Shown one piece after another: positions 25,954 to 50,831 of a stretch of 56,061 nt of DNA. Made by a program: the position numbers and the translations under genes. How positions within the stretch are numbered: position 1 is the stretch's first letter; every line of letters begins with the position of its first letter. Below the pieces are notes generated by a model. The model had not been told where the DNA came from and ran no database searches. It worked only from the letters and a program-made list of their open reading frames with translations. Source of the stretch: a virus; the IMG/VR virus record IMGVR_UViG_3300005529_000044, positions 1-56,061 of that record; one strand, given 5' to 3'.

Positions 25954-26032
25954 CGATCTGCTCCCTCTGCCTCACGGCAGTGGTGCTGAGCGCGTCTCCC
26001 GACGGGCCCAGGCTACTCAGATTCGTCCCGGT

Positions 26033-27163: not shown

Positions 27164-27205
27164 CGGAAACAATCATACGCTCAAATGTTGCGAGCCTGCA
27201 AGCCC

Positions 27206-29365
27206 TTAGGGTTGAGCAGGGGCGGCGGGTTCGCTTTGTGGGTTCCCGCGTTCGGCCGGCGGCGGCATCTGCGTGCGCAGGTCGCGCTGCAATTCGGCGT
27301 CGTGCTCGGCCAGCGCCACATCGACGCGGCGGCCGGCTTCGACGTCCCCGGATTTTAGTTCGGCGACGGCAAGCGTAGTCCGGTTCTGGGCGTCGGCGAT
27401 GCGCTCGCGCGAGGCGAGTTCGAGCACCTTGGCCTTGCGCTCGTCTTCTGCGGCGTTCAGGGCCTTCGTCAACGAATCGGCCAGCTTCTGGAACACCTGA
27501 AGCTGCTGCTCGAGCTGCGCAATCTGCGCCTGGGCCTTGGGCGGGATCGCCTCGTCGCCGGCATTGCGCGGGTCAATCGTATCGGCAATCTTTTCCGCAT
27601 CGGGCGCGTCCGAGGTCCGGATCATCATCGGCAGGGCCGGGGCCATCGCCTGCGGGAAGCTCTTGAGCAATTCGAGCAGGAAATCAAGCGACTCGCGGCG
27701 CCGGGTTTCGAACTTCGGCCCGACCGATACGACGACCTGGTAGTCGCTCGGATCGAGATCGACGATTTTCCCGTCGCCCAGGTCGGCCTGCGGAAACTGG
27801 TCGCCCGCGATCAGCTTGACGCTCCGGTGCGTGCCGTCCGGATCCTGGATCATGCGCTCTTGGTCGCGGTTGAAGACTTTCGGGATCATCCGCAGCAGGA
27901 TTTCGCACACACGCTGTTCGTGGCGGCTGTAGTTGTCCACGTAGTGGAAATGGCCGATGTCCCCGGCCGACTGGCGTGCCAGGATTGCCTTGCCCGACGT
28001 TTCGGGACCTTCGTTGCCGAGCGAAGCATCGTAGGTGTCGAGCTGGGCCTTCAGATTATCGACCGCCAGACTGATGCCCGCCATGATCGACTGGATCTCG
28101 GGACCGGCCGTCTGCCGCTGCGGCGCTGGCAGCAGATTGCCGTTCACGGATTTCTCGTTGTAGGGCAGGACCCCGAACGGTTCTTCGTTGGCGTTGTCCC
28201 AGAAATGGCGCAGGCCTTCGATCTGGCCGAGTGCGGCCACGAACGGCGCGAGCGGTGAGAGTCCGACGACTTCGGCGAGCTTCGAAAGCATGTAGTCGAG
28301 CAGCATGCTGGCGTCGCGGGCGCTGAACACCATGCCGCGCAGCGCGCGCTTGCCATCGAGCAGGATGCGTTCCCCGATAATTGGCACGAACGGAATGCTC
28401 GTGTCTTCCCAGACGATCTCCTCTGTCAGGAGCTCGACGCCGTTCAAAGTGACTTGCTTCACGGTCGGCTGGTCGAGCGTGCGCGACGCCAGCGCTACGG
28501 CCCCGGCGGGCAGCGCCCCCTGGATCACCGTGCCGTCCTCCAGCCAATGGATTTCGATCTTCCGGTTTTCGACGAACCAGTATTCGGCCACTACCACGTC
28601 GCCTTCCGGAAACCAGTCGCGCTTCAGGTCGTCGCCGATCGAGGTGAATGATGCCAGACTCGCGATCTGTCCCTTCGGATACGCCTGTTTGTAGCGCTCC
28701 AGCGACAGGCGGCGGACGACGAAGAGCCAGCGTGCGTCGCTGAAGTCGAATTTCTTGGCCTCGGGATCCCGATAGACCTGGAAGGGACTGCCGATCTCCT
28801 CGATCGCCAGCGTCTGGTTGAAGATCGAGGTATCGAGCGGTCCATCGGGGAGATTGGTCGTCTCGTACTGTTTCGTGATCCGCACCCAGCCGAGGCCGCC
28901 GGTGAGCGCGTCCTCAAACGCTGTCTCCTGGGCGATGTCGGCATGGCAAGCGTTTTTGATATGGCGGATGAAGCCTTGGAAGACCTCGGCTGCTTGCTTG
29001 CTCGCGCGGCCGCCGTAGGGAATGGCCCTGCCCTCGGGCGGATTCTGGCGTGCGTGATTCACCACGCGCTTGATCGCCGGCGTGAGGCGATCGATCGTCA
29101 GCACCGGCCTGTCTTTCTTCCGGCGTTTCGCCTCGCGCTTCGGATCCCAGTGCCGGCCAGCCCGAAACTGATGGTCCTCGAGCATCTGCTGCCGCTCTTG
29201 ACTCTCCGCGTTGACAGCGACGGCAAATCGGATTCGGGCTTGCTTTAGGATTTCTTCGGCGCGGGATTGCTCGGGAGTAAGGCCGCTGTCCGGCGCCGCG
29301 ATCCGCGCGGTCGCGTTGGTGCCTGTGGGCCTGCGTTTCGCTGCCGCCGTTTCCTGGGGATTCAT
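27206..29365 (-). CDS. Portal protein (P22 type)
   Basis: 719 residues, close to P22 gp1 in length. The N-terminal E-D-H-Q-F-R-A-G-R-H-W-D, then R-P-V-L-T-I-D-R-L-T-P-A-I-K-R-V-V-N and the D-A-L-T-G-G-L-G-W motif are typical of P22-type portals. A long C-terminal helix (coiled-coil barrel) covers about residues 620-700. It forms the dodecameric ring through which DNA is packaged and ejected. The ATG overlaps the stop of the small gene before it. Confidence 0.88.
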   Translation of the reverse strand: MNPQETAAAKRRPTGTNATARIAAPDSGLTPEQSRAEEILKQARIRFAVAVNAESQERQQMLEDHQFRAGRHWDPKREAKRRKKDRPVLTIDRLTPAIKRVVNHARQNPPEGRAIPYGGRASKQAAEVFQGFIRHIKNACHADIAQETAFEDALTGGLGWVRITKQYETTNLPDGPLDTSIFNQTLAIEEIGSPFQVYRDPEAKKFDFSDARWLFVVRRLSLERYKQAYPKGQIASLASFTSIGDDLKRDWFPEGDVVVAEYWFVENRKIEIHWLEDGTVIQGALPAGAVALASRTLDQPTVKQVTLNGVELLTEEIVWEDTSIPFVPIIGERILLDGKRALRGMVFSARDASMLLDYMLSKLAEVVGLSPLAPFVAALGQIEGLRHFWDNANEEPFGVLPYNEKSVNGNLLPAPQRQTAGPEIQSIMAGISLAVDNLKAQLDTYDASLGNEGPETSGKAILARQSAGDIGHFHYVDNYSRHEQRVCEILLRMIPKVFNRDQERMIQDPDGTHRSVKLIAGDQFPQADLGDGKIVDLDPSDYQVVVSVGPKFETRRRESLDFLLELLKSFPQAMAPALPMMIRTSDAPDAEKIADTIDPRNAGDEAIPPKAQAQIAQLEQQLQVFQKLADSLTKALNAAEDERKAKVLELASRERIADAQNRTTLAVAELKSGDVEAGRRVDVALAEHDAELQRDLRTQMPPPAERGNPQSEPAAPAQP

Positions 29366-29625
29366 TCCGCTCTCAAGGCTTCTATGATCTGGTCGGCGGT
29401 GACGGTGACTTCTTCGCCCTTATAGCGCACGATGAGGCGATCTATACCCGTCATCTCGGGCCTGCTCTTATCGTAAAGGCTGAGCATTATTGACTGCGCT
29501 CCCGACAGCTTCACGCCGGAGCGACCGAGTTGGAGCTCCCCGGATTCGCGTTGCTGGCCAACGAGCGTGCCCGCGACGGCCGCCAGCAGCCGGATGATGC
29601 CACGGCGCTTCATGGGCTCGGTCAT
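29362..29625 (-). CDS. Small head/packaging-region protein
   Basis: 87 residues. A hydrophobic patch (residues 10-23) is followed by a charged/beta region (L-I-V-R-Y-K-G-E-E-V-T-V-T-A-D-Q). ATGA-coupled to the terminase above and to the portal below. Small genes in this place are common in phages; no specific family recognised. Confidence 0.6.
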   Translation of the reverse strand: MTEPMKRRGIIRLLAAVAGTLVGQQRESGELQLGRSGVKLSGAQSIMLSLYDKSRPEMTGIDRLIVRYKGEEVTVTADQIIEALRAE

Positions 29626-31178
29626 TTCATCCAGCCCCCCGTGCTGCCATAACTCTCAGCGGAGTACTCTGACGCCTTGGCCTTGGGCGGTTCGGCTTTC
29701 ATGATTTTTCGGCCGCTTTCCCATCCGTAACGGAGCGCATCCTGCAGGTGGTCCTTCTGCTTGACAATCTTACCCTTGTCATCGCGCCGGTACAACCGGA
29801 ATTCCGCGAAGAAGTTCTTCAGCGTTTCAAACACTTTGAGTTGCCCCTGTGTGAACGCCTCGAAAACATCCCATACCCCGGTCTCAACCGCGTTCTCCGC
29901 CTCGACGATATGCAGGCCCAAATCGCGGTACATCTGGATGAGCTGGCGGCCGTCAACCTGGCTGCGGCCGCGGGCTGCCGGATCGATCACGCCCGGGATC
30001 CACTTGCCCGGTGCCTGGATCGCGACGACGTGGGCGGACGGCGACATGCCTTCTTCCCCCGCTCGGTAGTACTCGTGGTAGGCGACCACCTGGCCGGTGT
30101 CCGGATTTCGTGCAAGCCAGATCGCCGCGGTGCGATTCCATCCGACGTCGAGCGCGTAGCAACGCGGCCAGTGCTTCGGGATCGGGAAGGGCTTGATCGC
30201 GATCTCGGTTTCTGAAATCGGGTACACCGCGCCCGAGCCCATCTGGGGGATACCCTTGGTGCGCGCGTCGCGCTGGTAGGGCGGAATCTTGGCGAGCAGG
30301 TCGGCCTTGGCTTGTTCAGTCAGGTGCGGCGCGTCATCCCAGGTCGCCATCACCACGTAGGTCGCGGTCTGGTGCTTGGTCCAGGTCGCCTCGGCGTTCT
30401 TGTATTCGTCTTCGGTGGAGAACTGCTCGGCGAGCGGCCGCGGCGTCCTGAGCGGAATCTGCTCGCGATAGAGATCCATGGCCTCGACCATCAGCTCGGT
30501 CATGCCGTGCATGGGCGTCGCGGTCAGATACACGATGCCGCCGGTGGTGATCGTGCGCAGCAAACACTCGACCCAGATTTCTTTCGGGCATTCCTCATCG
30601 AGCCAGATAACGTGAAGCTTCTCGGCGGAGAAAATATCGACGCCTGATTCGTAGCTTTTGAAGGTCAGTGTGCTGATGCCGCCCGATTCGTGGCGGATGC
30701 GGACGGTGTCGATCGCGTCGGGTGTTCCTTGGCGCATGCGGTAATCGACGATCGAGTCTGCCGGCACCATGCCAGTCCCCACGCCGATGACTTTGTCGGC
30801 CGGCTCGCCCAACTCGCGCGCAAGCTGGCCCATGAGCTCGGCCTGCACGGAGTCGCGAACTTTGGGCCCGGTGAGCCCCGCGGCCCAGGCCTTGATCGGA
30901 TGATAGAAGCGCTTCCCGGTCCACCACGCAGGATAACGGCCGGTCAGGTGGAGCGCGGTCTCGTAGGCGCCGGTGGTGCTCTTCCCGACCTGGTTGCCCG
31001 CCACAAATGCTCGCGCGCGGCGCGTGCGTCCAGCTTCGAAGAATTCCAGGTGCTTGGGGTAGAGTTCGCGGCGAAAGCGACCCTGGCTCGGGAAGTAGGC
31101 GCGGAGCCGATTGCGGGCGTTATCTAAAAACGCCAGGCGCAGGGCCTCGGGGTCCACGGCGTCGAGCGATAGGCTCAT
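29622..31178 (-). CDS. terL: Terminase large subunit
   Basis: 518 residues, a full-length packaging motor. Walker A is G-N-Q-V-G-K-S-T (61-68), Walker B is I-W-L-D-E-E (191-196), and the coupling motif is T-A-T-P (219-222). The C-terminal nuclease domain starts at Y-A-L-D-V-G-W (D344) and includes V-I-D-P-A and the final D-H-L-Q-D-A-L-R-Y-G. It packages DNA with the small subunit encoded just upstream (13-bp gap). Confidence 0.92.
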   Translation of the reverse strand: MSLSLDAVDPEALRLAFLDNARNRLRAYFPSQGRFRRELYPKHLEFFEAGRTRRARAFVAGNQVGKSTTGAYETALHLTGRYPAWWTGKRFYHPIKAWAAGLTGPKVRDSVQAELMGQLARELGEPADKVIGVGTGMVPADSIVDYRMRQGTPDAIDTVRIRHESGGISTLTFKSYESGVDIFSAEKLHVIWLDEECPKEIWVECLLRTITTGGIVYLTATPMHGMTELMVEAMDLYREQIPLRTPRPLAEQFSTEDEYKNAEATWTKHQTATYVVMATWDDAPHLTEQAKADLLAKIPPYQRDARTKGIPQMGSGAVYPISETEIAIKPFPIPKHWPRCYALDVGWNRTAAIWLARNPDTGQVVAYHEYYRAGEEGMSPSAHVVAIQAPGKWIPGVIDPAARGRSQVDGRQLIQMYRDLGLHIVEAENAVETGVWDVFEAFTQGQLKVFETLKNFFAEFRLYRRDDKGKIVKQKDHLQDALRYGWESGRKIMKAEPPKAKASEYSAESYGSTGGWMK

Positions 31179-34377: not shown

Positions 34378-34619
34378 GTGGTTCGGTTTTTGTGGGGGTC
34401 ACATGAACCCGAGAATGGGCCGATAGCCCCGCAATCGCGTTTGGGCGCGTTTTGGCGCGTCGGTTTTGGGAACGTCTCTCTGGTCGATTCGGCCCGCGAG
34501 AATCGCAGCAGCGCCGTCCTGGGCGCTGCTGCATGGGGAATCTTGCGCATGCCTGAAGCGCATGCGATACGTGCATGTTCCCCGTGAAGGCTCGGTCGGT
34601 TGCGCAAAGGATTGCTCAC
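34362..34619 (-). CDS. Doubtful small gene after the replication initiator
   Basis: 85 codons whose ATG overlaps the initiator's stop (ATGA). The protein is basic, poor in secondary structure, and most of its length is the DNA of a hairpin and short direct repeats. It overlaps the next gene by 16 bp. It may be a coupled mini-gene or just an open frame through a regulatory stretch. Confidence 0.3.
   Translation of the reverse strand: MSNPLRNRPSLHGEHARIACASGMRKIPHAAAPRTALLRFSRAESTRETFPKPTRQNAPKRDCGAIGPFSGSCDPHKNRTTWISY
34505..34532. repeat. Strong perfect hairpin near the replication gene
   Basis: An 11-bp perfect inverted repeat GCAGCAGCGCC / GGCGCTGCTGC with a 6-nt loop. Close by, GCGCATGC is repeated twice with 5 bp between (around 34545-34565). 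There is no T tract, so a simple terminator is unlikely; a DNA- or RNA-structure role near the replication origin is possible. Confidence 0.6.
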
Positions 34620-35338
34620 TCGATTGCCCTTCGAAGGTCCCCTGGCGTCTGGAACCCCTGGGATGTTGTGGGTTTTCTTTTCTCGTAAGTGGCTGAAGCC
34701 ACAAGCGAGCGCGCCTCGTTGCCGATGGTAATTTGTGGTAGCGGCTCGCCGTCGGGAAGCTTCAGCGCTCCGGCTTCTTCGAGCCGATGCATGATCACGG
34801 TGACGTCGAGCGGTCCAGTGATCGGCGTCCCGGTCGCGACGATCCAGCGCTGCGCGAGCTTCCAGAGCCGCTCGGCCGTCTTGTCTCCGCGGTAGTAACT
34901 GGGCATGCCCATGCTTCCCTCGATGAGCCGAGCGGTGGGTTTCGTTTCCAACAGCGGCGGTGTTTTCTGGTTGGCTCCAGCCGGAGGCTCCATGGAGATA
35001 TGGATGGAGGGATCACCTGAGGGATCACCTGAGGGATCATTTTTCCCGCCCTGAGGGATCAAATTTATCCGTATCTGACTTAAAACGCGCTGTTTATTAG
35101 GACGACGGGAGGGATCACCCAAAATCTGTTTCTTTGATGTGGAATTTCCACGCCTTTGGGTGGAAATCCAGCCCTTTTCGCGGAGGCCGGCCATCGCGCG
35201 CTTGACCGTCGGGACGCTCAGTTTTAGGTCTGCGGCGATCGTCTTCTGGCGAGCGATCGTATAGGACTTTCCAAAACAGAAGTGCTTCAGCCGGAGGTAG
35301 ACCCGGCGCTCGGTGCGGGTGAGCGGCTCGGTCGTCAT
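34616..35338 (-). CDS. Replication initiator with winged-helix domain
   Basis: 240 residues. The start M-T-T-E-P-L-T-R-T-E-R-R overlaps the upstream stop (ATGA). Residues 8-65 form a helix-turn-helix domain (T-I-A-A-D-L-K-L-S-V-P-T-V-K-R-A-M-A-G-L) of the type found at the N-terminus of phage replisome organisers (lambda O-like). The middle contains D-P-S-G-D-P-S-G-D-P-S, which is the translation of DNA repeats (iterons). The C-terminal domain (L-W-K-L-A-Q-R-W) is likely the helicase-loading part. No helicase is seen in the window, so host replisome use is inferred. Confidence 0.75.
   Translation of the reverse strand: MTTEPLTRTERRVYLRLKHFCFGKSYTIARQKTIAADLKLSVPTVKRAMAGLREKGWISTQRRGNSTSKKQILGDPSRRPNKQRVLSQIRINLIPQGGKNDPSGDPSGDPSIHISMEPPAGANQKTPPLLETKPTARLIEGSMGMPSYYRGDKTAERLWKLAQRWIVATGTPITGPLDVTVIMHRLEEAGALKLPDGEPLPQITIGNEARSLVASATYEKRKPTTSQGFQTPGDLRRAIE
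35007..35117. repeat. Iterons within the initiator gene, candidate replication origin
   Basis: Five copies of GAGGGATCA at 35007, 35019, 35031, 35053 and 35109, the first three spaced exactly 12 bp. They are followed (35061-35100) by a stretch richer in A and T than its surroundings. Iterons plus an AT-rich tract inside the initiator gene is the lambda ori layout. Confidence 0.65.
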
Positions 35339-37797: not shown

Positions 37798-39096
37798 TCA
37801 CATCGTCCTCGCTTTCTCTTCCGGCGCCGCGGCGTCCTTGGCCTGCATGTGCTGGCCGAGCCGGACGGCCAGGTCTTTGAGGCGCCGCTCGCTCACGATG
37901 TGGTAGCGATCGAAGACGGCCCGCGTCTTGTGGCCTGAGATCTCCATCGCTTCTTTTTCGCTGAAGCCCGCCTCTATCATGTTGGTGACGGCAGTCCGGC
38001 GCAGGTCATGAAAGAGCTGGTCGGGGATACCGGCGAGCTCGCATGCTGTCGCCCAGGACTTTCGGAAATCGCGCACGCGCCGGCCTTCGTGCTGTAGCAG
38101 ATAGGGACAGGCGAGACATTCTTTTGACTGCGGATCGTCGCCCGTGACTCCGCTCTCTGCCGCTTCGGCGTGGGGCGTTCCCGTTTTGTGCCCGGCTCGC
38201 TTGCGCGATATAACCGTTTTCCCAGGTTCGCTTGCCTTCCTAACGTGGGAACTCGTATGTCCGTGGCTCCCCGCAGTCAAAGCCTTGTGACGCAGCCCCG
38301 CGATCGCCATCTCTAGCTCGGCGGCCATGTCGCCGTAAATGGGCAGGTAGCGCGGGTGTCCGTTCTTCGTGGTCGCTCGCCTGATCAGGATACGACCGGC
38401 CTTTAGGTCGATCGCGTCGATCCGGATGCTTGCGATCTCGCCCTTTCGGGCACCGGTGTGGTAGCCGATCACCAGCGCGATCCGCGCGTATGGCGGCAGG
38501 GAGTCGCGCACGGCCTTGTATTGGTCGTGCGATAGAATGCCCTCGCGTGGATCGCTTTCCGGCAGCATTTCGAAGTGTGGGATGCGGGTCACCAGCGGAG
38601 GGTCTTCCATCGCACCCAAGTTCAAGGCTCGGCGAACATAGGCGAGCTCGCGATTGATCGTCGCGTTTGCCGGCCGCGGTTTGGCCTGTTGGCGATGATA
38701 AGTATACCTACGTATCAGCGCGCTAGTGACGTCTTTCGCCTTGATGGACCCGAACCAGGCGCGCAACCGCCCTGGCTCTTCTCGGCCGTCGCCTGGCCGC
38801 AGCCAGCTATTGACCAAACGCAGCGAATGCCGGCCTTTGGTGCGATAGGAGTCAAGAAGCAAATCGAATAGCTGCGCCATCTTTACTCGCTCTGGCAGCA
38901 CGTCAGATTCGGAACTGGTTGCCGACATCTTGCGACGCAGAAACTGCACGGCCTCGTCGTAGTCTTCGGTTTCTGCCGGCAGCGTGACCGGCTTGCCCTG
39001 GACGTAATAGCGCACGTACCATGTGCGCGTTTCTTTGAGTTGGCCATCGCGGCCGCGATAGCGCTGGTGGAAAACCGAACCGCTGGAGAGCTTCAT
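37798..39096 (-). CDS. int: Tyrosine integrase
   Basis: 432 residues. Catalytic residues: R217 (T-G-A-R-K-G-E), K244 (T-T-K-N-G-H), H363-x-x-R366 (F-H-D-L-R-R-T), H389 (S-G-H-K) and nucleophile Y398 (D-R-Y-H-I). A core-binding SAM-like domain lies at about 70-165. Residues 275-345 are an extra insertion between K244 and the H-x-x-R box, with C-L-A-C, not seen in most integrases. It is the last gene of the leftward early operon, next to attP, and is ATGA-coupled to the excisionase-like gene. Confidence 0.92.
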   Translation of the reverse strand: MKLSSGSVFHQRYRGRDGQLKETRTWYVRYYVQGKPVTLPAETEDYDEAVQFLRRKMSATSSESDVLPERVKMAQLFDLLLDSYRTKGRHSLRLVNSWLRPGDGREEPGRLRAWFGSIKAKDVTSALIRRYTYHRQQAKPRPANATINRELAYVRRALNLGAMEDPPLVTRIPHFEMLPESDPREGILSHDQYKAVRDSLPPYARIALVIGYHTGARKGEIASIRIDAIDLKAGRILIRRATTKNGHPRYLPIYGDMAAELEMAIAGLRHKALTAGSHGHTSSHVRKASEPGKTVISRKRAGHKTGTPHAEAAESGVTGDDPQSKECLACPYLLQHEGRRVRDFRKSWATACELAGIPDQLFHDLRRTAVTNMIEAGFSEKEAMEISGHKTRAVFDRYHIVSERRLKDLAVRLGQHMQAKDAAAPEEKARTM

Positions 39097-39353
39097 GACG
39101 TGACCTTATTCCTCCGGATCCATTCGTCGAGATCCTGTAGGTCAACCATCTTACGCCGGCCGCTGGCGACGACGGGCAGCTCGTGGCGCTCGATCATCGT
39201 CCAGATCTGCCGCTCGGAGAGTGCCAGGTATTCGGCGGCCTGGTCGACGGTCAACAGCCGCCGATTGGTCGCCGGGTTCACGTGCAAGGCCTCGCGCACG
39301 GCGTCGCCGACGATCGAGCGCAGCAGCTCGGCAAACTGGTCGAACAGACTCAT
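39093..39353 (-). CDS. xis: Excisionase-like MerR-type helix-turn-helix protein
   Basis: 86 residues. The C-terminal half is an HTH_17 domain: R-R-L-L-T-V-D-Q-A-A-E-Y-L-A-L-S-E-R-Q-I, then a wing and D-L-D-E-W-I-R-R-N-K. Such proteins bend attachment-site DNA as excisionases. Location immediately before the integrase supports this over a pure regulator. Confidence 0.8.
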   Translation of the reverse strand: MSLFDQFAELLRSIVGDAVREALHVNPATNRRLLTVDQAAEYLALSERQIWTMIERHELPVVASGRRKMVDLQDLDEWIRRNKVTS

Positions 39354-41105: not shown

Positions 41106-41557
41106 GCCTTGGGCTCCGGTGCGGGCAGCGCGAGTTGCGCATTCCAGACCTCGAACGCTGTGCGTCCGTCGGCTGCTAGCGCGTACGGCATGAACACTTC
41201 GTGCGGTTTACACATGCCGGCTTCGATCATCGCGTTCTGCACTTTCACCCAGGTGAGTAGTTGCCGCCAGGCGATCCGTTCGGCCTTGGCCTGGAGCTTC
41301 GATCTCTCCGGCACGTTCGACCCTGCGCGGCGCTTTAGGTGCTGGTAAACGCCTTCTATTCTGGCTGGCATCGAAAAACTGATATCTCGGCCCTCGGCGC
41401 GCAAGGTCCAATCGATGCCGGTGATCTTGCCGCCGTCGTCGTGATGTGTGGCTATCCGGCGGGCTCCCGCCTTTACCAGTTCGGTCGCAATCTCAGCCGC
41501 CGAACGGTCGGCTTCGACCTCGGTCGATTCGAGAAACATCGGCTTCTTCATGCTCAT
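41102..41557 (-). CDS. Conserved phage protein
   Basis: 151 residues. Layout (L-E-S-T-E-V-E, G-A-R-R-I-A, I-S-F-S-M-P-A-R, A-W-R-Q-L-L-T-W-V-K-V-Q-N-A-M, H-E-V-F-M-P-Y) matches a common phage family of unknown function, often beside the VRR-NUC gene. ATGA-coupled on both sides. Confidence 0.7.
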   Translation of the reverse strand: MSMKKPMFLESTEVEADRSAAEIATELVKAGARRIATHHDDGGKITGIDWTLRAEGRDISFSMPARIEGVYQHLKRRAGSNVPERSKLQAKAERIAWRQLLTWVKVQNAMIEAGMCKPHEVFMPYALAADGRTAFEVWNAQLALPAPEPKA

Positions 41558-42216
41558 CGCAGGAAGTTCTTCCGCTGGCCGTCGCTATCGTCGATGCGCG
41601 ATTCGATCGCCTTCTGGTCGCGCAGGATCGTGAGCACGGAATAAATTGCCGAGGGCGTTGCACGCAGTTCTTTGATCAGGTCGGCCGAAGTCATCGGCTT
41701 CTTGCGCAGCGCCGCCAGGATTTCGGCTTTGCGGCCCGACGGCTCCGGCGCTGGCTCGCCTGCGGGTGCCGCCGGTTTCGTGCGACCGCCGCTGCCGTTT
41801 GCCGTACGTTGCCGGCGCGGCTTGTCAGTCCTATTTGACCCGGCTGCGGGTTCGTCAATTTTATTTGACGCCCGGCCGACCTCGATGCGGGCGTTCGTAA
41901 CGGTGATAGGCCCCCTGAGTCCCGGATCGTCGACGAGGTCCGGCGCGTCCGGCGGCTCCTGCTCCGGCGCTTCGCCCAGCAGCAGCAGGCAGCGGTGTTC
42001 CATCTGCTTGCAGCAGGAAATCAGCACGCGCAGGCTGCCGCGATACGCCTTTTGGTCGAAGGGCAGGCCCTGGAGAATCGCGTCGATCGTCTGGGCGCCC
42101 CGGATCATCTCCCCATGCAGCAGGATCTGATCCTGCGGGAGCTCGTAGAGCTGGAGCTGTGGCTCGACCGGTGGAGGCGGATCGGGCGGCGGAGGGATGA
42201 ATCGCGGGCGCTTCAT
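41554..42216 (-). CDS. Winged-helix DNA-binding protein with Pro-rich N-terminus
   Basis: 220 residues. The C-terminal 50 residues form a winged helix (R-K-A-E-I-L-A-A-L-R-K-K-P-M-T-S-A-D-L-I). Residues 8-17 are Pro-rich and 120-160 are basic and low-complexity. Likely a DNA-binding early protein; target unknown. Confidence 0.65.
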   Translation of the reverse strand: MKRPRFIPPPPDPPPPVEPQLQLYELPQDQILLHGEMIRGAQTIDAILQGLPFDQKAYRGSLRVLISCCKQMEHRCLLLLGEAPEQEPPDAPDLVDDPGLRGPITVTNARIEVGRASNKIDEPAAGSNRTDKPRRQRTANGSGGRTKPAAPAGEPAPEPSGRKAEILAALRKKPMTSADLIKELRATPSAIYSVLTILRDQKAIESRIDDSDGQRKNFLR

Positions 42217-42801: not shown

Positions 42802-43053
42802 TCAGTATTTCCCTCCGTGGGTGAGGGCCGAATTGCAATCCATCCGGGCCTCGCGGATTTTGCGGATCGCAACGGTCCGGTCGGGCCCGGGCGGCACGTG
42901 CTCGATGATCGTGTGCACGGCATGTATCAGAGCGACGCGCACGGCATGCCCGCGCTCGGTCTTCTGTTGATCCCAAGGATGGTATTCGAACATGTCGCGC
43001 ACGGTCGCGCGCACTTCGTCGGTCAGTTCCGTCGCTCGATTCAGGTCAGGCAT
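42802..43053 (-). CDS. Acb2/Tad1-like anti-defence cyclic-nucleotide sponge
   Basis: 83 residues. The pattern F-E-Y-H-P-W-D near the middle, V-P-P-G-P-D-R-T-V-A-I, then I-R-E-A-R-M-D-C-N-S-A-L fits the small Acb2/Tad1 fold found in phages. In known members these homo-oligomers bind cyclic nucleotides and so block CBASS or Thoeris defence signalling. GAGGAG lies ahead of the ATG. The match was made by pattern recall, not a search. Located in the early operon where anti-defence genes are expected. Confidence 0.7.
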   Translation of the reverse strand: MPDLNRATELTDEVRATVRDMFEYHPWDQQKTERGHAVRVALIHAVHTIIEHVPPGPDRTVAIRKIREARMDCNSALTHGGKY

Positions 43054-43706: not shown

Positions 43707-43819
43707 GGGTGCTCCAGCCAGCCCAGATACCAGAGCCCCAGGCCAATTGCGATCACGGCCAGAATCACCTCGAGCAGCACGCCGGCGGCCCAGTCGCGCA
43801 ACTCGCGAGCGCGGCTCAT
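43703..43819 (-). CDS. Tiny single-pass membrane protein
   Basis: 38 residues with one clear membrane helix (A-A-G-V-L-L-E-V-I-L-A-V-I-A-I-G-L). Exact 4-bp overlaps with the ParB-like gene and with the next mini-gene support it as real. Function unknown. Confidence 0.55.
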   Translation of the reverse strand: MSRARELRDWAAGVLLEVILAVIAIGLGLWYLGWLEHP

Positions 43820-45384
43820 TTGGCGGCCTCCTTCCGCTTTGCGGCCTTCTTGTCTTCGGCGGCTTTTTCAGCCGCGCGCTTCTTCGAAGCTTCGAATTTG
43901 GCGAGCATCGGTGCACCGACGCTCTTCTGCAATTCGCCGAGGTCGATGCCGGCGCCGTCCAGGATGCGCTTGTCCAAGATGCTGCCGGATAAGTAGCGCG
44001 GGTTCCCATAGGGATGCATCGCGCACAGCCCGAGAAGGAGACCCTGAACGGAATCGTCGTTTGGGATCGCGGCAAGCAGGGCCTTTTCCAAATCGGCGTG
44101 TTTTGTTTTCGGCAACCGAAGAATGTGCGCCAGCTCTTTGCGGCCATCGTCGCGCAGGTAGCCCGTGACGAGCTTCTCCGCGATGATGTGCAGTTCGTGC
44201 TCCCCCAGGCCTTGGTCGCCCGCTATGATCTGGCGGACTGCTTCGCGGCGCGCCTCCACCCGGATCGTCTCGTCGAGGCGCTTCTTCTTGTCGGCCCACT
44301 TGTCGGCCACCGTGGCCGGCTTGCCGAAATCGCTGCTCTGGTACTGGCCGTGCTTCTTGCACTCCTGCGAACGGCAGATGAGGACCGTGTGCCCCACGCG
44401 TTCGGTTCCTGTCGCCACCAGCGCGGGCTCGGCGTGCTTGCACTTATCAGACTCGGTGCGGATCAGTAGGAAATTGCTACGGCCGATCACGCCCGCCGAC
44501 AGCCGGTCGCCCCAGTCGAGCGTCACGCGCGGCAGGTCCGGCCTGGTCTGGATCATCACCTGCACGAAGGCCGCCCGCTTGGCCTCGAAGCATTTCCCGT
44601 CGAGGCACTGGTCGCCCTTCTTCATGTCGTCGAACAGCTCGGCGTTGGCGCCCGTGCGCTTCTGGCAGGTGGTGCACGGCCCGGCCTTGGGCACCAGGTT
44701 CGGGTCGGATTTCTGCCAAGGCGCGCCGGCCAGATTCCGGTGCACGTGCTCGCGAATCCAGCGGGCCAGCTCGGACGCGGTGATGCCTGCCTTGTCCGGC
44801 TTCTTGCCGTTCCAGCTCGGGCGGAAGCAATAGGCAAAGGCCTCGTTCTGTCGGTCCTCGGGAAGGCGGCAAATATGGAGCGCGTGACCGTACGTAATCT
44901 TGCCGTCGAAGTACGCGGTGCGCGCCTTCGAGATCAACTGGAGCAGCTGGATCCGCTTGTAGATGTAGCTGCGGTCCTTTCCCACCTTTTCGGCGAGCAC
45001 GTCGGCGTTGTAGGCCTCGGACTGGAGTAGTCGCGCATAGCCCTCCGCTTCTTCGAGCGGATGCACATCCTCGCGCTGGAGGTTTTCGATCACCTGGATT
45101 TCGAGCGCCTGCTCGTCGGTCAGCTCGATGATGCGAACCGGCAGCACGGCCAGCCCGGCCAATTTGGCGGCCCGGAAACGCCGGGCGCCGGCCACGATCT
45201 CGTGCTTCTCCTGGTCTTTGCCACGGGCTGGCCGAACGAGCAGCGGCTCCAGAATGCCGTGCTCTTTGGCGCTCTGGGCGAGCTCGCGGAGTTTCCCTTC
45301 GTCGAAGTGCCGGCGCGGGTTAGTCTTCGATTCGACCAGTGCGCCGATCGGGAGCTCCACGAGTCGGCTCTCAGTGGCCGGCAT
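43816..45384 (-). CDS. ParB-like protein
   Basis: 522 residues. The N-terminal ParB domain has K-T-N-P-R-R-H-F, V-A-G-A-R-R-F-R-A-A-K (GxRRF-like CTP-binding box near 65-74) and E-N-L-Q-R-E-D (100-106). A helix-turn-helix follows (Y-N-A-D-V-L-A-E-K-V-G-K-D-R). The mid part holds paired Cys (C-T-T-C-Q-K, C-L-D-G-K-C). There is no ParA partner in the window, so a role in partition is doubtful. ParB-like nucleases or regulators are common in phage early regions. Confidence 0.8.
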   Translation of the reverse strand: MPATESRLVELPIGALVESKTNPRRHFDEGKLRELAQSAKEHGILEPLLVRPARGKDQEKHEIVAGARRFRAAKLAGLAVLPVRIIELTDEQALEIQVIENLQREDVHPLEEAEGYARLLQSEAYNADVLAEKVGKDRSYIYKRIQLLQLISKARTAYFDGKITYGHALHICRLPEDRQNEAFAYCFRPSWNGKKPDKAGITASELARWIREHVHRNLAGAPWQKSDPNLVPKAGPCTTCQKRTGANAELFDDMKKGDQCLDGKCFEAKRAAFVQVMIQTRPDLPRVTLDWGDRLSAGVIGRSNFLLIRTESDKCKHAEPALVATGTERVGHTVLICRSQECKKHGQYQSSDFGKPATVADKWADKKKRLDETIRVEARREAVRQIIAGDQGLGEHELHIIAEKLVTGYLRDDGRKELAHILRLPKTKHADLEKALLAAIPNDDSVQGLLLGLCAMHPYGNPRYLSGSILDKRILDGAGIDLGELQKSVGAPMLAKFEASKKRAAEKAAEDKKAAKRKEAAK

Positions 45385-46042: not shown

Positions 46043-46311
46043 GCGGCCCTCCTGGTGCGCTCGTCCTGCCGGCGCCGCCATTCCGCGTAGCCGTGGTCCA
46101 AAACTTCTTCGCTCGCCGCCGTCTTGGTGATCCGCGCCTTCCGCACCGCCTTGTCGAAGCTGTAGCCCATGCCGAACAAAAGGCCCGCAAACGTGCGCCG
46201 CGTCATGTAGTTCGAGCTCAATTTCCTTTTGCCCGATGGAGTTCTGGGCGGAAGCGGTTCAAAGTCCCCGCCCTTTCCGCCAGAATCGATCGGCGTGGCA
46301 CGATCATCCAT
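46039..46311 (-). CDS. Hypothetical early protein
   Basis: 90 residues from M-D-D-R-A-T-P, behind GGAGCA, overlapping the RHH gene by 8 bp. Basic with a helical core (T-F-A-G-L-L-F-G-M-G-Y-S-F-D). No family recognised. Confidence 0.6.
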   Translation of the reverse strand: MDDRATPIDSGGKGGDFEPLPPRTPSGKRKLSSNYMTRRTFAGLLFGMGYSFDKAVRKARITKTAASEEVLDHGYAEWRRRQDERTRRAA

Positions 46312-46510
46312 GTTTTGCTCCTTTACTGAAGGCCGCGGCCGCCTCCTGTTCGAATTCCGGAAGGATCCGATCCAGGATGTCCTTGAGCGCAGCACCGAGA
46401 CTCTGGCGTCGTGCGCCTGCAACAGCAGTGAGACGTTCCTTCGTTTCCAGCGGGATACGCGCCTGAAGCAGTTCCAATTTCTCAGCCTTCTTTCGTGGTA
46501 TGTTCTTCAT
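46304..46510 (-). CDS. Ribbon-helix-helix regulator
   Basis: 68 residues from M-K-N-I-P-R-K-K-A. The strand L-E-L-L-Q-A-R-I-P, helix L-E-T-K-E-R-L-T-A-V-A-G-A, turn and second helix L-G-A-A-L-K-D-I-L form an RHH (Arc/MetJ-type) fold. It is the first gene of the leftward early operon and starts only about 16 nt after the predicted transcript start. It and the divergent RHH at 46574 likely bind the ATGCAT operators between and beyond them. Confidence 0.75.
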   Translation of the reverse strand: MKNIPRKKAEKLELLQARIPLETKERLTAVAGARRQSLGAALKDILDRILPEFEQEAAAAFSKGAKHG

Positions 46511-46532
46511 GCTGTTATTAGAAACCATACGG

Positions 46533-46562
46533 ATCATACTGCATGCATGTGATGCATGTCAA
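46533..46562 (-). promoter_or_regulatory. Leftward early promoter with operator
   Basis: Minus strand: TTGACA (46562-46557), an 18-bp spacer, then TATGAT (46538-46533). The spacer holds two ATGCAT palindromes with 9-bp spacing. The sequence matches the rightward promoter at 47258 at 27 of 30 positions. It would drive the whole 46510-37798 operon, with a leader of about 16 nt. Confidence 0.75.
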
Positions 46563-46573
46563 GAGGAATTTGC

Positions 46574-46879
46574 ATGTCCATTGAAAAGCACGTACAGGTG
46601 CGGCTGAACGAAGCCGAGAAGCAAAAGCTAAAGATCCTGCGCCACGAGATGCAAGTCGACAGTCTCCAGGAACTTATGCACCGGATCGTTCTGGCCGCCA
46701 TCGAGAAGACCGACGTGCAGGCGAGCCGACCCGCCCAGCATGAGGCCCTTTACCAGAAGGTCGCGTTCATCCTCAGCCACGGCGAAGACGCCGATCGCGC
46801 GACGCTCGACCGCTACTTGGACTTTCTCGCATCGGAAATACGGGCGCGCCGGGCACTTCGGAAACACGGTTCACGGTGA
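46574..46879 (+). CDS. Second ribbon-helix-helix-like regulator
   Basis: 101 residues from M-S-I-E-K-H-V, chosen because AAGAGGA lies ahead. The strand K-H-V-Q-V-R-L-N, helix E-A-E-K-Q-K-L-K-I-L-R and second helix S-L-Q-E-L-M-H-R-I fit an RHH. A C-terminal helical extension follows. It is transcribed away from the other RHH gene, with the shared operator between them. Resembles the layout of paired phage repressors (P22 Arc/Mnt) in principle. Confidence 0.65.
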   Translation: MSIEKHVQVRLNEAEKQKLKILRHEMQVDSLQELMHRIVLAAIEKTDVQASRPAQHEALYQKVAFILSHGEDADRATLDRYLDFLASEIRARRALRKHGSR

Positions 46880-46942
46880 TCGAGGGCCGGGGGCATCGAT
46901 CTATCGACTGAAAACGGCCAAAATTGATAGTACTAAAACCGC

Positions 46943-47248
46943 ATGAGTTTTTTCCTTAACACGAACTGGCCCGGAATCGGCACAGCAATCTTTAAGCTGG
47001 GCGCATCGTCCTTATGGCTAGCTCTGTCCTTTCGATTCGGCTTCCGCTGCCGGCACGAAGACGGGGGCACGCTTGATTCGCGGCCTGGCTCAACCCTAGA
47101 AGCGTTTATGGTTTTCCCCGTTGTTTCAACGATTCCCGCTTACCTGTTGTTCGAAGGCCAGTCCGATTACGCCTTCGCCCTCGTGGTTTTGTCCTGCGCC
47201 GCGATGGTTCTCGGCTACAGGCGCGCTCGCAAGCACAAAAAGCCCTGA
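46943..47248 (+). CDS. Small membrane protein
   Basis: 101 residues with two hydrophobic segments (about residues 20-34 and 54-92, the latter probably one or two passes) and a basic end. Lies between the two promoter/operator copies, so it may respond to the same switch. No family recognised; a superinfection-exclusion role is speculative. Confidence 0.6.
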   Translation: MSFFLNTNWPGIGTAIFKLGASSLWLALSFRFGFRCRHEDGGTLDSRPGSTLEAFMVFPVVSTIPAYLLFEGQSDYAFALVVLSCAAMVLGYRRARKHKKP

Positions 47249-47257
47249 TTTTAGTCG

Positions 47258-47303
47258 TTGACATGCATTACATGCATGCTGTATGCTTTGCATGTAACGC
47301 ATG
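47258..47303 (+). promoter_or_regulatory. Rightward early promoter with operators
   Basis: TTGACA (47258-47263), 18-bp spacer, TATGCT (47282-47287). The spacer has two ATGCAT palindromes 9 bp apart. A second pair of GCATG half-sites (47290, 47299), again 9 bp apart, covers the transcription start. 27 of 30 positions match the leftward promoter at 46533-46562. Confidence 0.75.
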
Positions 47304-47405
47304 AGCCGACGCATTCCCCACCACGTCATCGCCCGAAACCGCGCCAGGGTCGAAGCCGACTGGAACTGGCAACGCCACAATCCCGCGCTTTCCGGAGGCA
47401 ACTGA
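47301..47405 (+). CDS. Mini-protein at the start of the rightward operon
   Basis: 34 residues (M-S-R-R-I-P-H-H-V-I-A-R-N-R ... R-H-N-P-A-L-S-G-G-N). The transcript would begin only about 7 nt upstream, so it is nearly leaderless. It resembles the N-terminus of the protein at 47612 (R-R-L-P-R-R-I-A-R-R-R, R-H-N-P), so it is probably a shortened paralogue. Confidence 0.5.
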   Translation: MSRRIPHHVIARNRARVEADWNWQRHNPALSGGN

Positions 47406-47408
47406 GTC

Positions 47409-47612
47409 ATGAACTGCTACGCCATCCGCACGCTGAGCGATCGGAAGTTCGTCGGCTCGATTTACGCCGATGACTGCCACACCGTGCCAAGCCCCGATCC
47501 GGATGATCCGACGACTCTGACAGCCTTCGATGTCGATGGCCACTCGGTCGCGTATATCTGGAGCGATCGCCTGTCCTGGGAGATGGATCAGCACTCGCGG
47601 AGGAAAATCTAG
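47409..47612 (+). CDS. Hypothetical early protein
   Basis: 67 residues with GGAGG 11 bp ahead of ATG. Acidic/aromatic, with C-Y-A-I-R and C-H-T near the N-terminus. Overlaps the next gene by one base (TAGTG). No family recognised. Confidence 0.6.
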   Translation: MNCYAIRTLSDRKFVGSIYADDCHTVPSPDPDDPTTLTAFDVDGHSVAYIWSDRLSWEMDQHSRRKI

Positions 47613-47845
47613 TGCGCCGCCTGCCCCGCCGCATCGCACGCCGGCGCGCTGGTGACGCGCTCGCCGCCGAGGAATTCGATCGCCACAATCCCGAGCCCGT
47701 GAAGCCCGGCGGCCCGTGCGCGCTGTGCGGCAAGCCCGAAGACGACCACTACGCCGGCATGTGCGATGACTGGCGCCCCTACACGCCGAAGAAGGCGGCA
47801 CCCTGGAAGATCGACGGCGAGTTTGACGCTGGACTCGAAAGATGA
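47612..47845 (+). CDS. Small zinc-knuckle-like protein
   Basis: 77 residues from a GTG start with GGAGGAAA ahead. Basic N-terminus like the mini-protein at 47301, then C-A-L-C-G-K-P-E-D-D-H-Y-A-G-M-C, which fits a zinc-binding loop. Unknown function. Confidence 0.65.
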   Translation: MRRLPRRIARRRAGDALAAEEFDRHNPEPVKPGGPCALCGKPEDDHYAGMCDDWRPYTPKKAAPWKIDGEFDAGLER

Positions 47846-48495
47846 GCACGCAGCCCGCCCTCGATCTCCAGGCGTCCAAGCCCACGCTGCGCTTCGACGC
47901 CGTCGCGCACAAATATTTTCTCGATCCGGAAGGCGTCGAACTTCCCGGAGTCACCCGCGCGCTCGAGGGCGCTGGCATCGTCGACTGGTCGATGGTCCCG
48001 CGCGATATTCTCGTCGCCGCTCAGGAGCGCGGCACGCGCGTCCACGAAGCGCTCCATTACCTCGATGACGGCGAGCTCGATGAGCAAAACCTCGATCCCG
48101 CGATCCAGGGCTACGTGAGCGCCTGGCCCAAGGCCAAGGCACAGCTCGATATCGAAATTCTGCTCGTCGAGCACATGGGATTCAGCGCGGCGCATCGCTA
48201 CGCCGGGCGCATGGATCGCGTCGTCACGCTTCCCAAAAAAGGCGGCGGCCGGAGAAAATCTGTGATCGATTTCAAAACCGGCATCGTGCTTCCCGGCCAC
48301 GCCGTGCAGCTCGCTCTTTACGTGAGCCTGCTCCCGAATCCGTTCGAGTACGACCGGATCTGCCTTCAGTTGAGCGCCGACGGCACCTACCGGGTTCACG
48401 AATATCCGCCCGAGACCTTCCAGCGCGATCTGGCGATCGGCCGTGCCGCCGTCGGTATCTGGCACTGGAAGCAGAGTCAAGGCAAACGAGTTTAG
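47842..48495 (+). CDS. RecB/Cas4-type PD-(D/E)XK exonuclease
   Basis: 217 residues. Motif I R-G-T-R-V-H (63-68), E110, G-R-M-D-R (122-126), catalytic D-F-K-T-G (143-147) and Q-L-A-L-Y (156-160) define the PD-(D/E)XK fold. Together with the annealing-type gene two positions downstream it likely forms a Red/RecET-like recombination pair acting on double-strand ends. ATGA-coupled to the previous gene. Confidence 0.85.
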   Translation: MSTQPALDLQASKPTLRFDAVAHKYFLDPEGVELPGVTRALEGAGIVDWSMVPRDILVAAQERGTRVHEALHYLDDGELDEQNLDPAIQGYVSAWPKAKAQLDIEILLVEHMGFSAAHRYAGRMDRVVTLPKKGGGRRKSVIDFKTGIVLPGHAVQLALYVSLLPNPFEYDRICLQLSADGTYRVHEYPPETFQRDLAIGRAAVGIWHWKQSQGKRV

Positions 48496-48507
48496 AGGAG
48501 GAAAGTC

Positions 48508-49263
48508 ATGCAACCATCGAAAGCAGCCACGCAGGCCCTGCCCGGGCCGCGCCTTGTCCCGGTCGCCCGGGAGATCGATCCGGAGTTTCAGGCCGCGCTG
48601 AGCTGGCCGGAGCGCGCTAAAACGCTCAAGGTCATCGACGCCGCAACGCTCCAGCTCGCCGCCGATGAACGCGCGGCCGCCAAGGCCTTAATCGTCAAGG
48701 CACACGAAAGTTTCGATCCGATCTGCAAGTCGGCGTATGACGCCTGGCAAGTCGCCATCCGCAAGCGAGCCGAGATCCTCGACCCGCTCGAACAGGCGGT
48801 GAAGATTTACGACAGCGCGATGGTGGCCTACAACCGCGAACAGGAACGAATCGCGCGCGAGACCCAGCGCAAACTCGAAGAAGAGGCCCGGCTCCGCGAG
48901 CTCGAGGAACGCGAGCGCGAGATTGAGCACGCCGAAGCCACCGGCGCCACGCCGGCCGAAGTCGCTTCGATCATCGAGCGGCCGATCGTCGCGCCGCCGG
49001 TGGTGGCGCCTGCCCCGGCCAAACCCGCCGGCGCCGTCATCAAGCAGAACTGGAAGGGCCGCATTTCCGACATGCGAACCTTCATCACGCACCTGGTCCA
49101 AAACAAACGCTGGGAGCTGCTCGGACTGCTCGCCGAGGACTCGCCTGCCTGCAACAAATTAGCCGGCTCCATCAAAAACACCGGCTCCATTCCTGGCTTT
49201 GAAGCCTGGGACGCGGGAAGCGTCGCCAGCACAGCAAGCGGCCGCATGCCGCGGAGGTCGTAA
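48508..49263 (+). CDS. Coiled-coil recombination-associated protein
   Basis: 251 residues with a GAGGAGG site. A long helical middle (K-L-E-E-E-A-R-L-R-E-L-E-E-R-E) and a C-terminal domain (I-K-Q-N-W-K-G-R-I-S-D-M). Such proteins are often found between nuclease and annealing genes in phages. Function unknown. Confidence 0.7.
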   Translation: MQPSKAATQALPGPRLVPVAREIDPEFQAALSWPERAKTLKVIDAATLQLAADERAAAKALIVKAHESFDPICKSAYDAWQVAIRKRAEILDPLEQAVKIYDSAMVAYNREQERIARETQRKLEEEARLRELEEREREIEHAEATGATPAEVASIIERPIVAPPVVAPAPAKPAGAVIKQNWKGRISDMRTFITHLVQNKRWELLGLLAEDSPACNKLAGSIKNTGSIPGFEAWDAGSVASTASGRMPRRS

Positions 49264-50051
49264 TGCCTGAAAGTGAAGCCCTCACACCCACGTCCGTTGA
49301 TCTGGTCGAATTCGGCACGTTTCGCAAGCCCGAGCACGCGCTCGCCGAGGCCGAGCTCGTCGCCAAGGCGTTCGCCCTGCGCGCGGAACGCCTCAACCTG
49401 TTCGTGCAAATCGGCCCGTCGAAGCACTTGAAAATCGAGGGCTGGCAAATGCTCGCGATGATGTATCGCGTCTCGGCCGGGATCGTCTCGACCAAGTACG
49501 TCACGTTCGGCGAATTCGAGGGCTTTGAGGCCACCGCGGAAGCCATCTACGTCCCGACCGGCCACCGGATCTCGACGGCCGAAGCGATGTGCATGAATGA
49601 CGAGGACCGGTGGGACATGCGCCCGGAGTACGAATACATCGAAGGCAAAAAGACGCAGGTCGGCGAGGTGGAGGTGCCTCTCCAGCAGTTGCGCTCGATG
49701 GCGCAGACGCGCGCCTGTTCGAAGGTCCTGTCGAATCTGCTGCGGTTCGTCGCGGTGATGGCCGGCTTCGCCGGCACGCCGGCGCACGAGATGACGGGCA
49801 GCAACGGCTCTGCGGCGACGCCCGCATCGGCCCCGCAGCGCACCGGGGCAGCGGCGCCCACCGATCCAATCAGCGAAAAGCAGCTCGGCCGGCTGTGGGC
49901 GATCGCCAGGAACGCCGGCAAGTCCGATGAAGCCGTAGGCGTGGTGCTCGAACACTTCAAGTACTCGACGGCCGCCGGCGTGCGCGAGGCTGCCGCCCGC
50001 GTGCAGCGCAAGGACTACGAGGCGATCTGCGCGGAGCTGATGCGGCAATGA
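49263..50051 (+). CDS. Probable single-strand annealing/recombination protein
   Basis: 262 residues (TAATG coupling). The N-terminal part H-L-K-I-E-G-W-Q-M-L-A, then R-S-M-A-Q-T-R-A-C-S-K-V-L-S-N-L-L-R, resembles phage Rad52-type annealing proteins (Sak-like), a family I recall by pattern only. The C-terminal half (S-E-K-Q-L-G-R-L-W-A-I) is a separate helical domain. With the nuclease two genes upstream it would act in recombination. A different DNA-binding role is possible. Confidence 0.6.
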   Translation: MPESEALTPTSVDLVEFGTFRKPEHALAEAELVAKAFALRAERLNLFVQIGPSKHLKIEGWQMLAMMYRVSAGIVSTKYVTFGEFEGFEATAEAIYVPTGHRISTAEAMCMNDEDRWDMRPEYEYIEGKKTQVGEVEVPLQQLRSMAQTRACSKVLSNLLRFVAVMAGFAGTPAHEMTGSNGSAATPASAPQRTGAAAPTDPISEKQLGRLWAIARNAGKSDEAVGVVLEHFKYSTAAGVREAAARVQRKDYEAICAELMRQ

Positions 50052-50110
50052 TCAAGAAGGGCTTCCGCAAGGATTACGACGCGATCGTCGCGCGGGTGAT
50101 GCAGTCGTGA
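50048..50110 (+). CDS. Tiny ORF, partial copy of the preceding gene's end
   Basis: 20 codons starting in the previous stop (ATGA). The peptide R-K-D-Y-D-A-I-V-A-R-V-M-Q-S repeats the C-terminus of the annealing protein (R-K-D-Y-E-A-I-C-A-E-L-M-R-Q). Most likely a tandem-duplication remnant. It is translated only if coupling works. Confidence 0.45.
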   Translation: MIKKGFRKDYDAIVARVMQS

Positions 50111-50292
50111 CGCGCTCCGCGAAAGCCTCGGCCGGCCCTTGCCCGCACTGCTGCGACACCGGCCTGGTCGCGGACTGGGTCGGCGATTCGTTCCAATTCC
50201 GGCGCTGTATCTGCGCGGCCGCGGCCAGCCCGTTTCTCGAGCACTGGGTCGGGCGAGTTATTCACCCTGACGATTTCGTGATGGTGCGCTGA
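50107..50292 (+). CDS. Small zinc-ribbon-like protein
   Basis: 61 residues from a GTG start (GTGA). C-P-H-C-C and C-I-C form a likely zinc site. Unknown function. Confidence 0.6.
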   Translation: MTRSAKASAGPCPHCCDTGLVADWVGDSFQFRRCICAAAASPFLEHWVGRVIHPDDFVMVR

Positions 50293-50296
50293 GGCC

Positions 50297-50392
50297 ATGA
50301 TCCTGGCTTCGCTCATCGCCGTTTTTATCATCGTCGCGCTGCTCTGGGCGATCACGTCCGGAGTCGGCCACGACGATCAATGGAGGCACTAA
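50297..50392 (+). CDS. Tiny membrane protein
   Basis: 31 residues with one membrane helix (L-I-A-V-F-I-I-V-A-L-L-W-A-I). Its stop overlaps the next gene's ATG (TAATG). Unknown role. Confidence 0.5.
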   Translation: MILASLIAVFIIVALLWAITSGVGHDDQWRH

Positions 50393-50691
50393 TGGAAAAG
50401 CAACGAGTCGATTCTTCAAGCATCTTCGCGATCGGGCGCGACCAGTCGGGAACCGAGATCCAGTTTCACGCGGCTGGCTGCAAGGTCCGGACCAAGCGCG
50501 GAGGCGACGAGGTTCCCTGCGATTGCGAGGGCGGGGATACCTACCATTTCCCGCTCAACGATGAGGAGCACGCCGCGCTCGTCTCCGCGCCCTCAATCGG
50601 CGGCTACTTCATGCGAAACATCCGCCACGCCAAGAAACGCGATGGCTCGCTGCGCTATCCGGGCACCAAGCGCGAGGCGACGACGGCATGA
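50392..50691 (+). CDS. KTSC-domain protein
   Basis: About 99 residues from M-E-K-Q-R-V-D-S-S-S with GGAGG ahead. V-D-S-S-S-I-F-A-I-G-R-D, then I-Q-F-H, Y-H-F-P-L, and S-I-G-G-Y-F-M-R-N-I-R match the KTSC fold (lysyl-tRNA-synthetase C-terminal-like) with an insert holding C-D-C. In phages its role is unclear. Confidence 0.75.
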   Translation: MEKQRVDSSSIFAIGRDQSGTEIQFHAAGCKVRTKRGGDEVPCDCEGGDTYHFPLNDEEHAALVSAPSIGGYFMRNIRHAKKRDGSLRYPGTKREATTA

Positions 50692-50831
50692 ATCTCCGTT
50701 ACCTGACGGTTGAGACGCGCGTCGGTTTCTGGCAGCGGTGGAAGGTTCTGATCACCGGCCGCGTGCGCGTGAAGGTCCGCTTGGCCGAGCCGATTGCGAT
50801 CATCGAAGCGGCAGAGCTTTCTAAAGTCTAG
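50688..50831 (+). CDS. Small basic protein at the convergent junction
   Basis: 47 residues (M-N-L-R-Y-L-T-V-E-T-R-V-G-F-W-Q), ATGA-coupled. Its stop codon (50829-50831) overlaps the stop of the opposite-strand hydrolase (50828-50830) by two bases. No family recognised. Confidence 0.55.
   Translation: MNLRYLTVETRVGFWQRWKVLITGRVRVKVRLAEPIAIIEAAELSKV

Follow-up and report, generated by a model that had tools for sequence, protein, structure and literature searches.

The genetic switch of phage lambda is the textbook bistable circuit, whose logic tends to be associated with HTH repressors and with a cooperative, cleavable CI protein. In the annotated lambda genome, the order of the elements concerned is exo, N, OL, rexB, rexA, cI, OR, cro, cII, O. 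A different class of DNA-binding protein, the ribbon-helix-helix (RHH) proteins, includes CopG, whose operator carries TGCA boxes spaced about 9 bp apart. Phage P22 possesses a second immunity region, immI, that modulates C2/Cro (PMC11016777). In the virus SSV1, the RHH protein F55 is reported to maintain lysogeny through its binding to tandem repeats in early promoters, and has been likened to CI (PMC5569661). Among open-licence papers we found no case of a bacterial phage whose CI and Cro positions are held by two RHH proteins.

Here we describe a locus in which two RHH-like proteins, P0001 and P0002, appear to take these positions. The locus lies in a 56,061-base virus record (the window, by which we mean the entire stretch of DNA that was analysed) whose products include a P22-type portal and coat, a terminase, and tyrosine integrase, excisionase-like and O-like proteins. 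The features of the locus, and of the operons to either side of it, are listed in Table 1.

Table 1. Features of the putative control region and adjoining operons, in window coordinates
Feature	Position	Strand	Remarks
O-like replication initiation protein	34616..35338	-	leftward operon; phrog_270 and phrog_391
Tyrosine integrase	37798..39096	-	leftward operon; Phage_integrase E 1.8e-17; phrog_1 E 7e-42
Excisionase-like gene	39093-39353	-	beside integrase; phrog_66 E 3e-10
P0001, RHH-like protein of 68-74 aa	46304..46528	-	first gene of leftward operon; Cro position
Weak candidate promoter for P0002	46512..46540	+	CTGTTA, 17 bp, CATACT; speculative; faces leftward promoter; rank 194 of record positions with sigma-70 matrix
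Leftward promoter and operator (PR/OR position)	46533..46562	-	TTGACA, 18 bp, TATGAT; ACATGCA twice in spacer, 9 bp apart; minus strand 46562-46533 reads TTGACATGCATCACATGCATGCAGTATGAT
Extra half-site TTGCATGT	46570..46577	+	over P0002 start codon
P0002, RHH-like protein of 101 aa	46574..46879	+	helical C-terminal extension; CI position; RBS AAGAGGAA
P0003, hydrophobic protein of 101 aa	46943..47248	+	putative membrane protein; rexB position
Rightward promoter and operator (PL/OL position)	47258..47287	+	TTGACA, 18 bp, TATGCT; ACATGCA twice, 9 bp apart; plus strand 47258-47287 reads TTGACATGCATTACATGCATGCTGTATGCT
Degenerate third operator TTGCATGTAACGCAT	47288..47302	+	over predicted rightward transcript start; two mismatches to ATGCATNNNATGCAT
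Exonuclease	47842..48495	+	rightward (PL-type) recombination operon; phrog_298 E 2.7e-21; PDDEXK_1
Second phage-exonuclease-family match	48508-49263	+	phrog_10477 E 3.5e-12

Two promoter/operator copies in inverted orientation

A first-pass annotation of this DNA had claimed two near-identical promoters, one directed leftward and the other rightward. Direct reading of the sequence bears this out, with 27 of 30 bases identical between the two. The copies belong to an inverted repeat that pairs 46526-46562 with 47258-47294 (37 nt, 84%) across a distance of 695 nt, and no other inverted repeat in the region is as long. When as many as three mismatches to the 30-base promoter are permitted, these are the only two sites in the record, and none arises in 100 shuffles. 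They are likewise the only promoter-like sites between 45.5 and 48.0 kb. Moreover, when the whole record is scored on both strands with a sigma-70 matrix, the leftward copy comes first and the rightward copy second.

Each spacer was also said to contain two ATGCAT palindromes 9 bp apart, and these are indeed found in both copies, starting at 46543 and 46552 in one and at 47263 and 47272 in the other. ATGCAT alone occurs at chance frequency in the record (11 seen, 10.2 expected), whereas its asymmetric form, ACATGCA/TGCATGT, is seen 9 times when 4.2 are expected, and six of these nine occurrences reside inside the two switch spots. Because it is this 7-mer that is enriched and clustered, ACATGCA/TGCATGT is the better description of the half-site. 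Each promoter copy is accompanied by two ACATGCA-type repeats and one extra, located at 46571 at the start of P0002 and at 47289 at the predicted rightward start. The element TTGCATGT occurs only twice in the record, at 46570-46577 and at 47288. The additional pair of half-sites reported over the rightward start is present, but degenerate (Table 1), and over 15 nt the segment 47289-47303 shows 93% complementarity with 47262-47276.

One part of the initial description calls for an addition. The two promoters do not merely form a divergent pair for the RHH genes. The leftward copy does head P0001, but the rightward copy lies 0.4 kb past P0002 and heads the recombination operon instead. The strong copy is not the promoter of P0002, for which there is only a weak candidate. 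This candidate overlaps the operator, and so repression would be expected to affect P0002 as well. Both gene starts are also corrected. The ATG at 46537 lies within the leftward -10 box, which leaves 46528 or 46510 as the start of P0001, and P0002 starts at 46574, downstream of AAGAGGAA, rather than at 46556.

Gene order and the lambda plan

Gene calls, based on a hexamer score trained on the long genes of the same record, yield leftward transcription over 46528-931 and 55794-50828, together with rightward transcription over 46574-50831. P0002 receives a coding score of 47-51. The coding signal of P0003 is weak (2.4), yet it is the best of the six frames, and codon use in this gene is atypical. 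The protein has three stretches with a mean 19-residue hydropathy greater than 1 and a sub-threshold match to DUF7322 (E 0.0007). P0003 is possibly an exclusion protein or the product of some other lysogenic gene.

The leftward operon begins with P0001 and also carries the integrase, the O-like initiator and a ParB-like protein with an HTH (43816-45384, minus strand; ParB_N E 8.6e-26), for which none of the scanned proteins stood out as a ParA partner. An 83-aa protein encoded at 42802-43053 on the minus strand has a weak, sub-threshold match (E 0.0084) to the hairpin domain of Acb2/Tad1, which are phage proteins that sequester signalling nucleotides. On the plus strand, a sub-threshold KTSC domain (E 0.00043) is encoded at 50380-50691, close to the end of the recombination operon. 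Elsewhere, 28 of 30 bases are repeated between 4527-4556 and 5115-5144, within a large open reading frame (3747-6815). An Rfam search gave no matches.

The two inverted promoter copies enclose P0002 and P0003. The full order, which runs from the exonuclease through the rightward copy, P0003, P0002, the leftward copy and P0001 to the more distant integrase and O-like genes, corresponds to that of lambda. As in lambda, the putative repressor gene is flanked by inverted and related promoter/operators, and their orientation matches. The recombination genes are situated past the PL-type promoter (exonuclease, 47842, plus strand), and the replication initiator (34616, minus strand) belongs to the PR-type operon. 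This operon is headed by a small regulator, P0001, that is divergent from the repressor position. Since P0002 and P0003 are flanked by the two copies as cI-rex is by OR and OL, the CI and Cro positions would here be held by RHH-like proteins.

Similar arrangements are observed in two phages that were reached via exonuclease homology (about 32% identity), and hence independently of the operator. Shewanella phage vB_Sb_QDWS and Pseudomonas phage Itty13 share with the window a homologous exonuclease, a divergent small regulator, a repressor and a repeated operator-like sequence, and their recombination operons also run in the direction of the repressor. The repeat search that reports the PL/PR inverted repeat of lambda (33 nt, 79%, 2364 nt apart) finds one of 43 nt in QDWS (79%, 1255 nt apart) that flanks an S24 repressor and a small gene. 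In Itty13, an HTH_3 protein occupies the position of P0002 and an 18-nt repeat is present on either side. These phages differ from the window in that their repressors carry S24 (QDWS) or HTH_3 (Itty13) domains.

By analogy with these phages, the layout is that of a lambda-type lysis/lysogeny control region. A lysis/lysogeny control unit built on RHH proteins had been suggested at the outset, and the layout, the RHH-like scores and the lack of a CI-type domain all speak in favor of this proposal. However, the topology in which the operators flank the repressor gene had been missed.

Probable RHH character of P0001 and P0002

The claim that two divergent genes encode RHH proteins is plausible, although standard libraries give it little weight. 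The genes face apart and their products occupy the top two ranks in the matrix search described below, but the curated Pfam cut-off is not reached. P0001 matches Pfam RHH_1 with an E value of 0.038-0.09 and 14.4 bits, below the cut-off of 20.5, and its core matches FitA-like_RHH, also below cut-off (E 0.048). It is in addition the sole match within its own record, although a weak one (E 0.0042), to phrog_795, a profile to which Mnt and Arc of P22 belong as well. P0002 has no significant match in Pfam or the standard family libraries.

An ungapped RHH matrix built from ten families ranks P0002 first and P0001 second among 822 reading frames. Equal or better scores were obtained in 34 (P0001) and 38 (P0002) of 20,000 shuffles, and in related records, with 15,219 frames in all, the scores of these proteins are attained by just two frames that are not seeds. 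When each RHH family is left out in turn, P0001 and P0002 always remain within ranks 1-4, and with a matrix from Arc and Mnt alone P0002 falls to rank 8. The seeds of the matrix include Arc and Mnt, taken from the P22 record, Rv0298, taken from a PDB alignment, and ParD. Of the seeds compared with PDB entries, NikR, RelB and DinJ agree exactly in their cores and CopG in its sequence, and FitA and TacA are each one residue off.

This matrix was built after an attempt with five families, so that the RHH result depends in part on which method was chosen, most of all in the case of P0002. With the earlier five-family HMM the two frames ranked 6th and 8th (E near 8-10) and were not separated from shuffles, 273 and 389 of 5000 of which scored as well. 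A five-family ungapped matrix was matched by 5 of 3000 shuffles for P0001 and by 219 of 3000 for P0002. Given the failed attempt that preceded the ten-family matrix, we consider P0001 likely, and P0002 fairly likely, to be an RHH protein. Single-sequence monomer models of both proteins were of low confidence and uninformative, with no RHH match in a fold search; the model of P0002 places helices at residues 13-26, 31-45, 53-68 and 75-98. In an ungapped alignment, P0001 and P0002 have in common a Q-x-R at the positions of Arc N11 and R13. As circumstantial evidence, a common Q-x-R would fit recognition of one operator by both proteins.

Relatives of the locus were sought in several ways. Nothing was found for P0001, P0002, the ParB-like protein or the protein encoded at 48508-49263 in viral contigs scanned at the protein level, for P0001 and P0002 in tblastn searches of phages and plasmids, or for P0002 in a scan of the genome collection. 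A scan with the operator pattern gave 18 genome and 2 viral places, most of them in coding sequence; none of these has a second copy in a lambda-like layout, and they look like chance occurrences. A portal-profile scan identified 80 viral contigs as relatives, at no more than 37% identity. Neither a homologue of P0001 or P0002 nor an operator pair was present in 42 records, which comprise 40 of these 80 contigs (many of them fragments) together with Itty13 and QDWS.

A proposed RHH switch and its alternatives

We consider it probable that the locus is the lambda-type immunity cassette of a temperate P22-like podovirus, with RHH proteins in the CI and Cro positions that would bind the operators and provide the lysogenic function. 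A more complete proposal holds that an RHH repressor and an RHH antagonist share tandem operators as a bistable switch, which would constitute the sole immunity system and permit induction without RecA-driven self-cleavage. We advance this fuller version tentatively, as a possibility that falls somewhat short of being probable.

For such a mechanism we infer binding, promoter use, competition and the identity of the lysogenic protein, which from its position would be P0002. Two strong, outward-facing early promoters, with nearly the same operator in their spacers, would flank the repressor gene P0002. In the lysogen, P0002 dimers stacked on the ACATGCA repeats between the -35 and -10 elements of both promoters would block RNA polymerase. 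On entry into the lytic cycle, P0001, as the first leftward product, would compete with P0002 for these repeats, in the manner of Cro. Its binding would shut off P0002 and later damp both operons. A self-cleavage domain is found in neither P0001 nor P0002, and therefore induction would need another route, such as proteolysis or an antirepressor. LexA boxes of three types are absent from the 56,061-base record, and thus no link to the SOS response is indicated.

The initial observation that no CI-like gene is present extends to the entire window, in which HTH_3 and S24 are both absent; control genomes do give these domains. This absence argues against a scheme in which the RHH pair does no more than govern early lytic transcription by feedback, the part played by Arc in P22, while another regulator keeps lysogeny. 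Such a regulator might be the protein encoded at 41554-42216 on the minus strand, whose C-terminal part carries a winged-helix domain (HTH_5, E 2.7e-5). It might also lie elsewhere: the record, which shows no end repeats, is possibly incomplete, such that genes could be missing and a CI-type gene could be located outside it. However, P0002 sits between inverted operator copies, as CI does in lambda and the repressor does in QDWS, with a similar situation in Itty13. We therefore judge this scheme to be unlikely.

Alternatively, the roles of the two proteins might be reversed, with P0001 as the lysogenic repressor and P0002 as the lytic antagonist. The match to the P22 Mnt/Arc family is better for P0001, and Mnt is the protein that is active in the P22 lysogen. 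Yet P0001 comes first behind the strong leftward promoter that is directed toward the integrase and replication genes, which is the position of Cro, and it is P0002 that sits between the operators. A reversal consequently seems improbable.

The P22-like portal and coat, and a divergent RHH pair resembling mnt/arc, might also indicate a second immunity region of the P22 immI (Mnt/Arc) type, with the primary CI/Cro region outside the record. We doubt this strongly. The first genes on either side, including those adjoining P0001 and P0002, have no match to antirepressor families, whereas ant follows arc in P22, although a missing match falls short of proof. Furthermore, the operator is present in two copies instead of as a single shared region, and the RHH pair is found where the early operons diverge, whereas immI of P22 is among late genes. 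The P22-type portal, scaffold, coat and terminase set itself (24697-31178, minus strand) appears to represent a divergent lineage, given that its portal is at most 37% identical to anything found. Least credible is RHH autoregulation of the toxin-antitoxin or copy-number type, with P0002 as antitoxin and P0003 as membrane toxin, because although many RHH proteins are antitoxins and P0003 follows P0002 in the same direction, P0003 and its neighbours match no toxin or defence family, and the second promoter copy before the recombination operon would be left unexplained.

Comparison with known regulatory systems

If P0001 and P0002 do form a lambda-type immunity cassette, then the same circuit layout would operate with a different DNA-binding fold in both roles, which would mean that the layout outlives its proteins. 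Induction without CI cleavage would become testable. In addition, the existence of such cassettes would explain some temperate phages that seemingly have no repressor, as annotation looks for HTH domains.

Among other RHH systems, P22 immI (mnt/arc/ant) likewise has a divergent RHH pair at a strong promoter region, in a genome with P22-type capsid genes. It differs in carrying ant and in having a single operator region with no second promoter copy, and no CI-type gene is recognised in the window. SSV1 resembles the window in combining an RHH protein, F55, with tandem repeats in early promoters. SSV1, however, is an archaeal virus, for which the account cited describes one RHH protein and no divergent RHH partner. 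CopG of plasmid pLS1 is also a small RHH repressor, but its task is plasmid copy control.

Lambda, too, differs from the window in several respects. CI and Cro are HTH proteins, whereas RHH-like proteins without a self-cleavage domain are found in both positions in the window. Where lambda has rexA and rexB, this virus has one small membrane-like gene, and its integrase resides in the PR-type operon.
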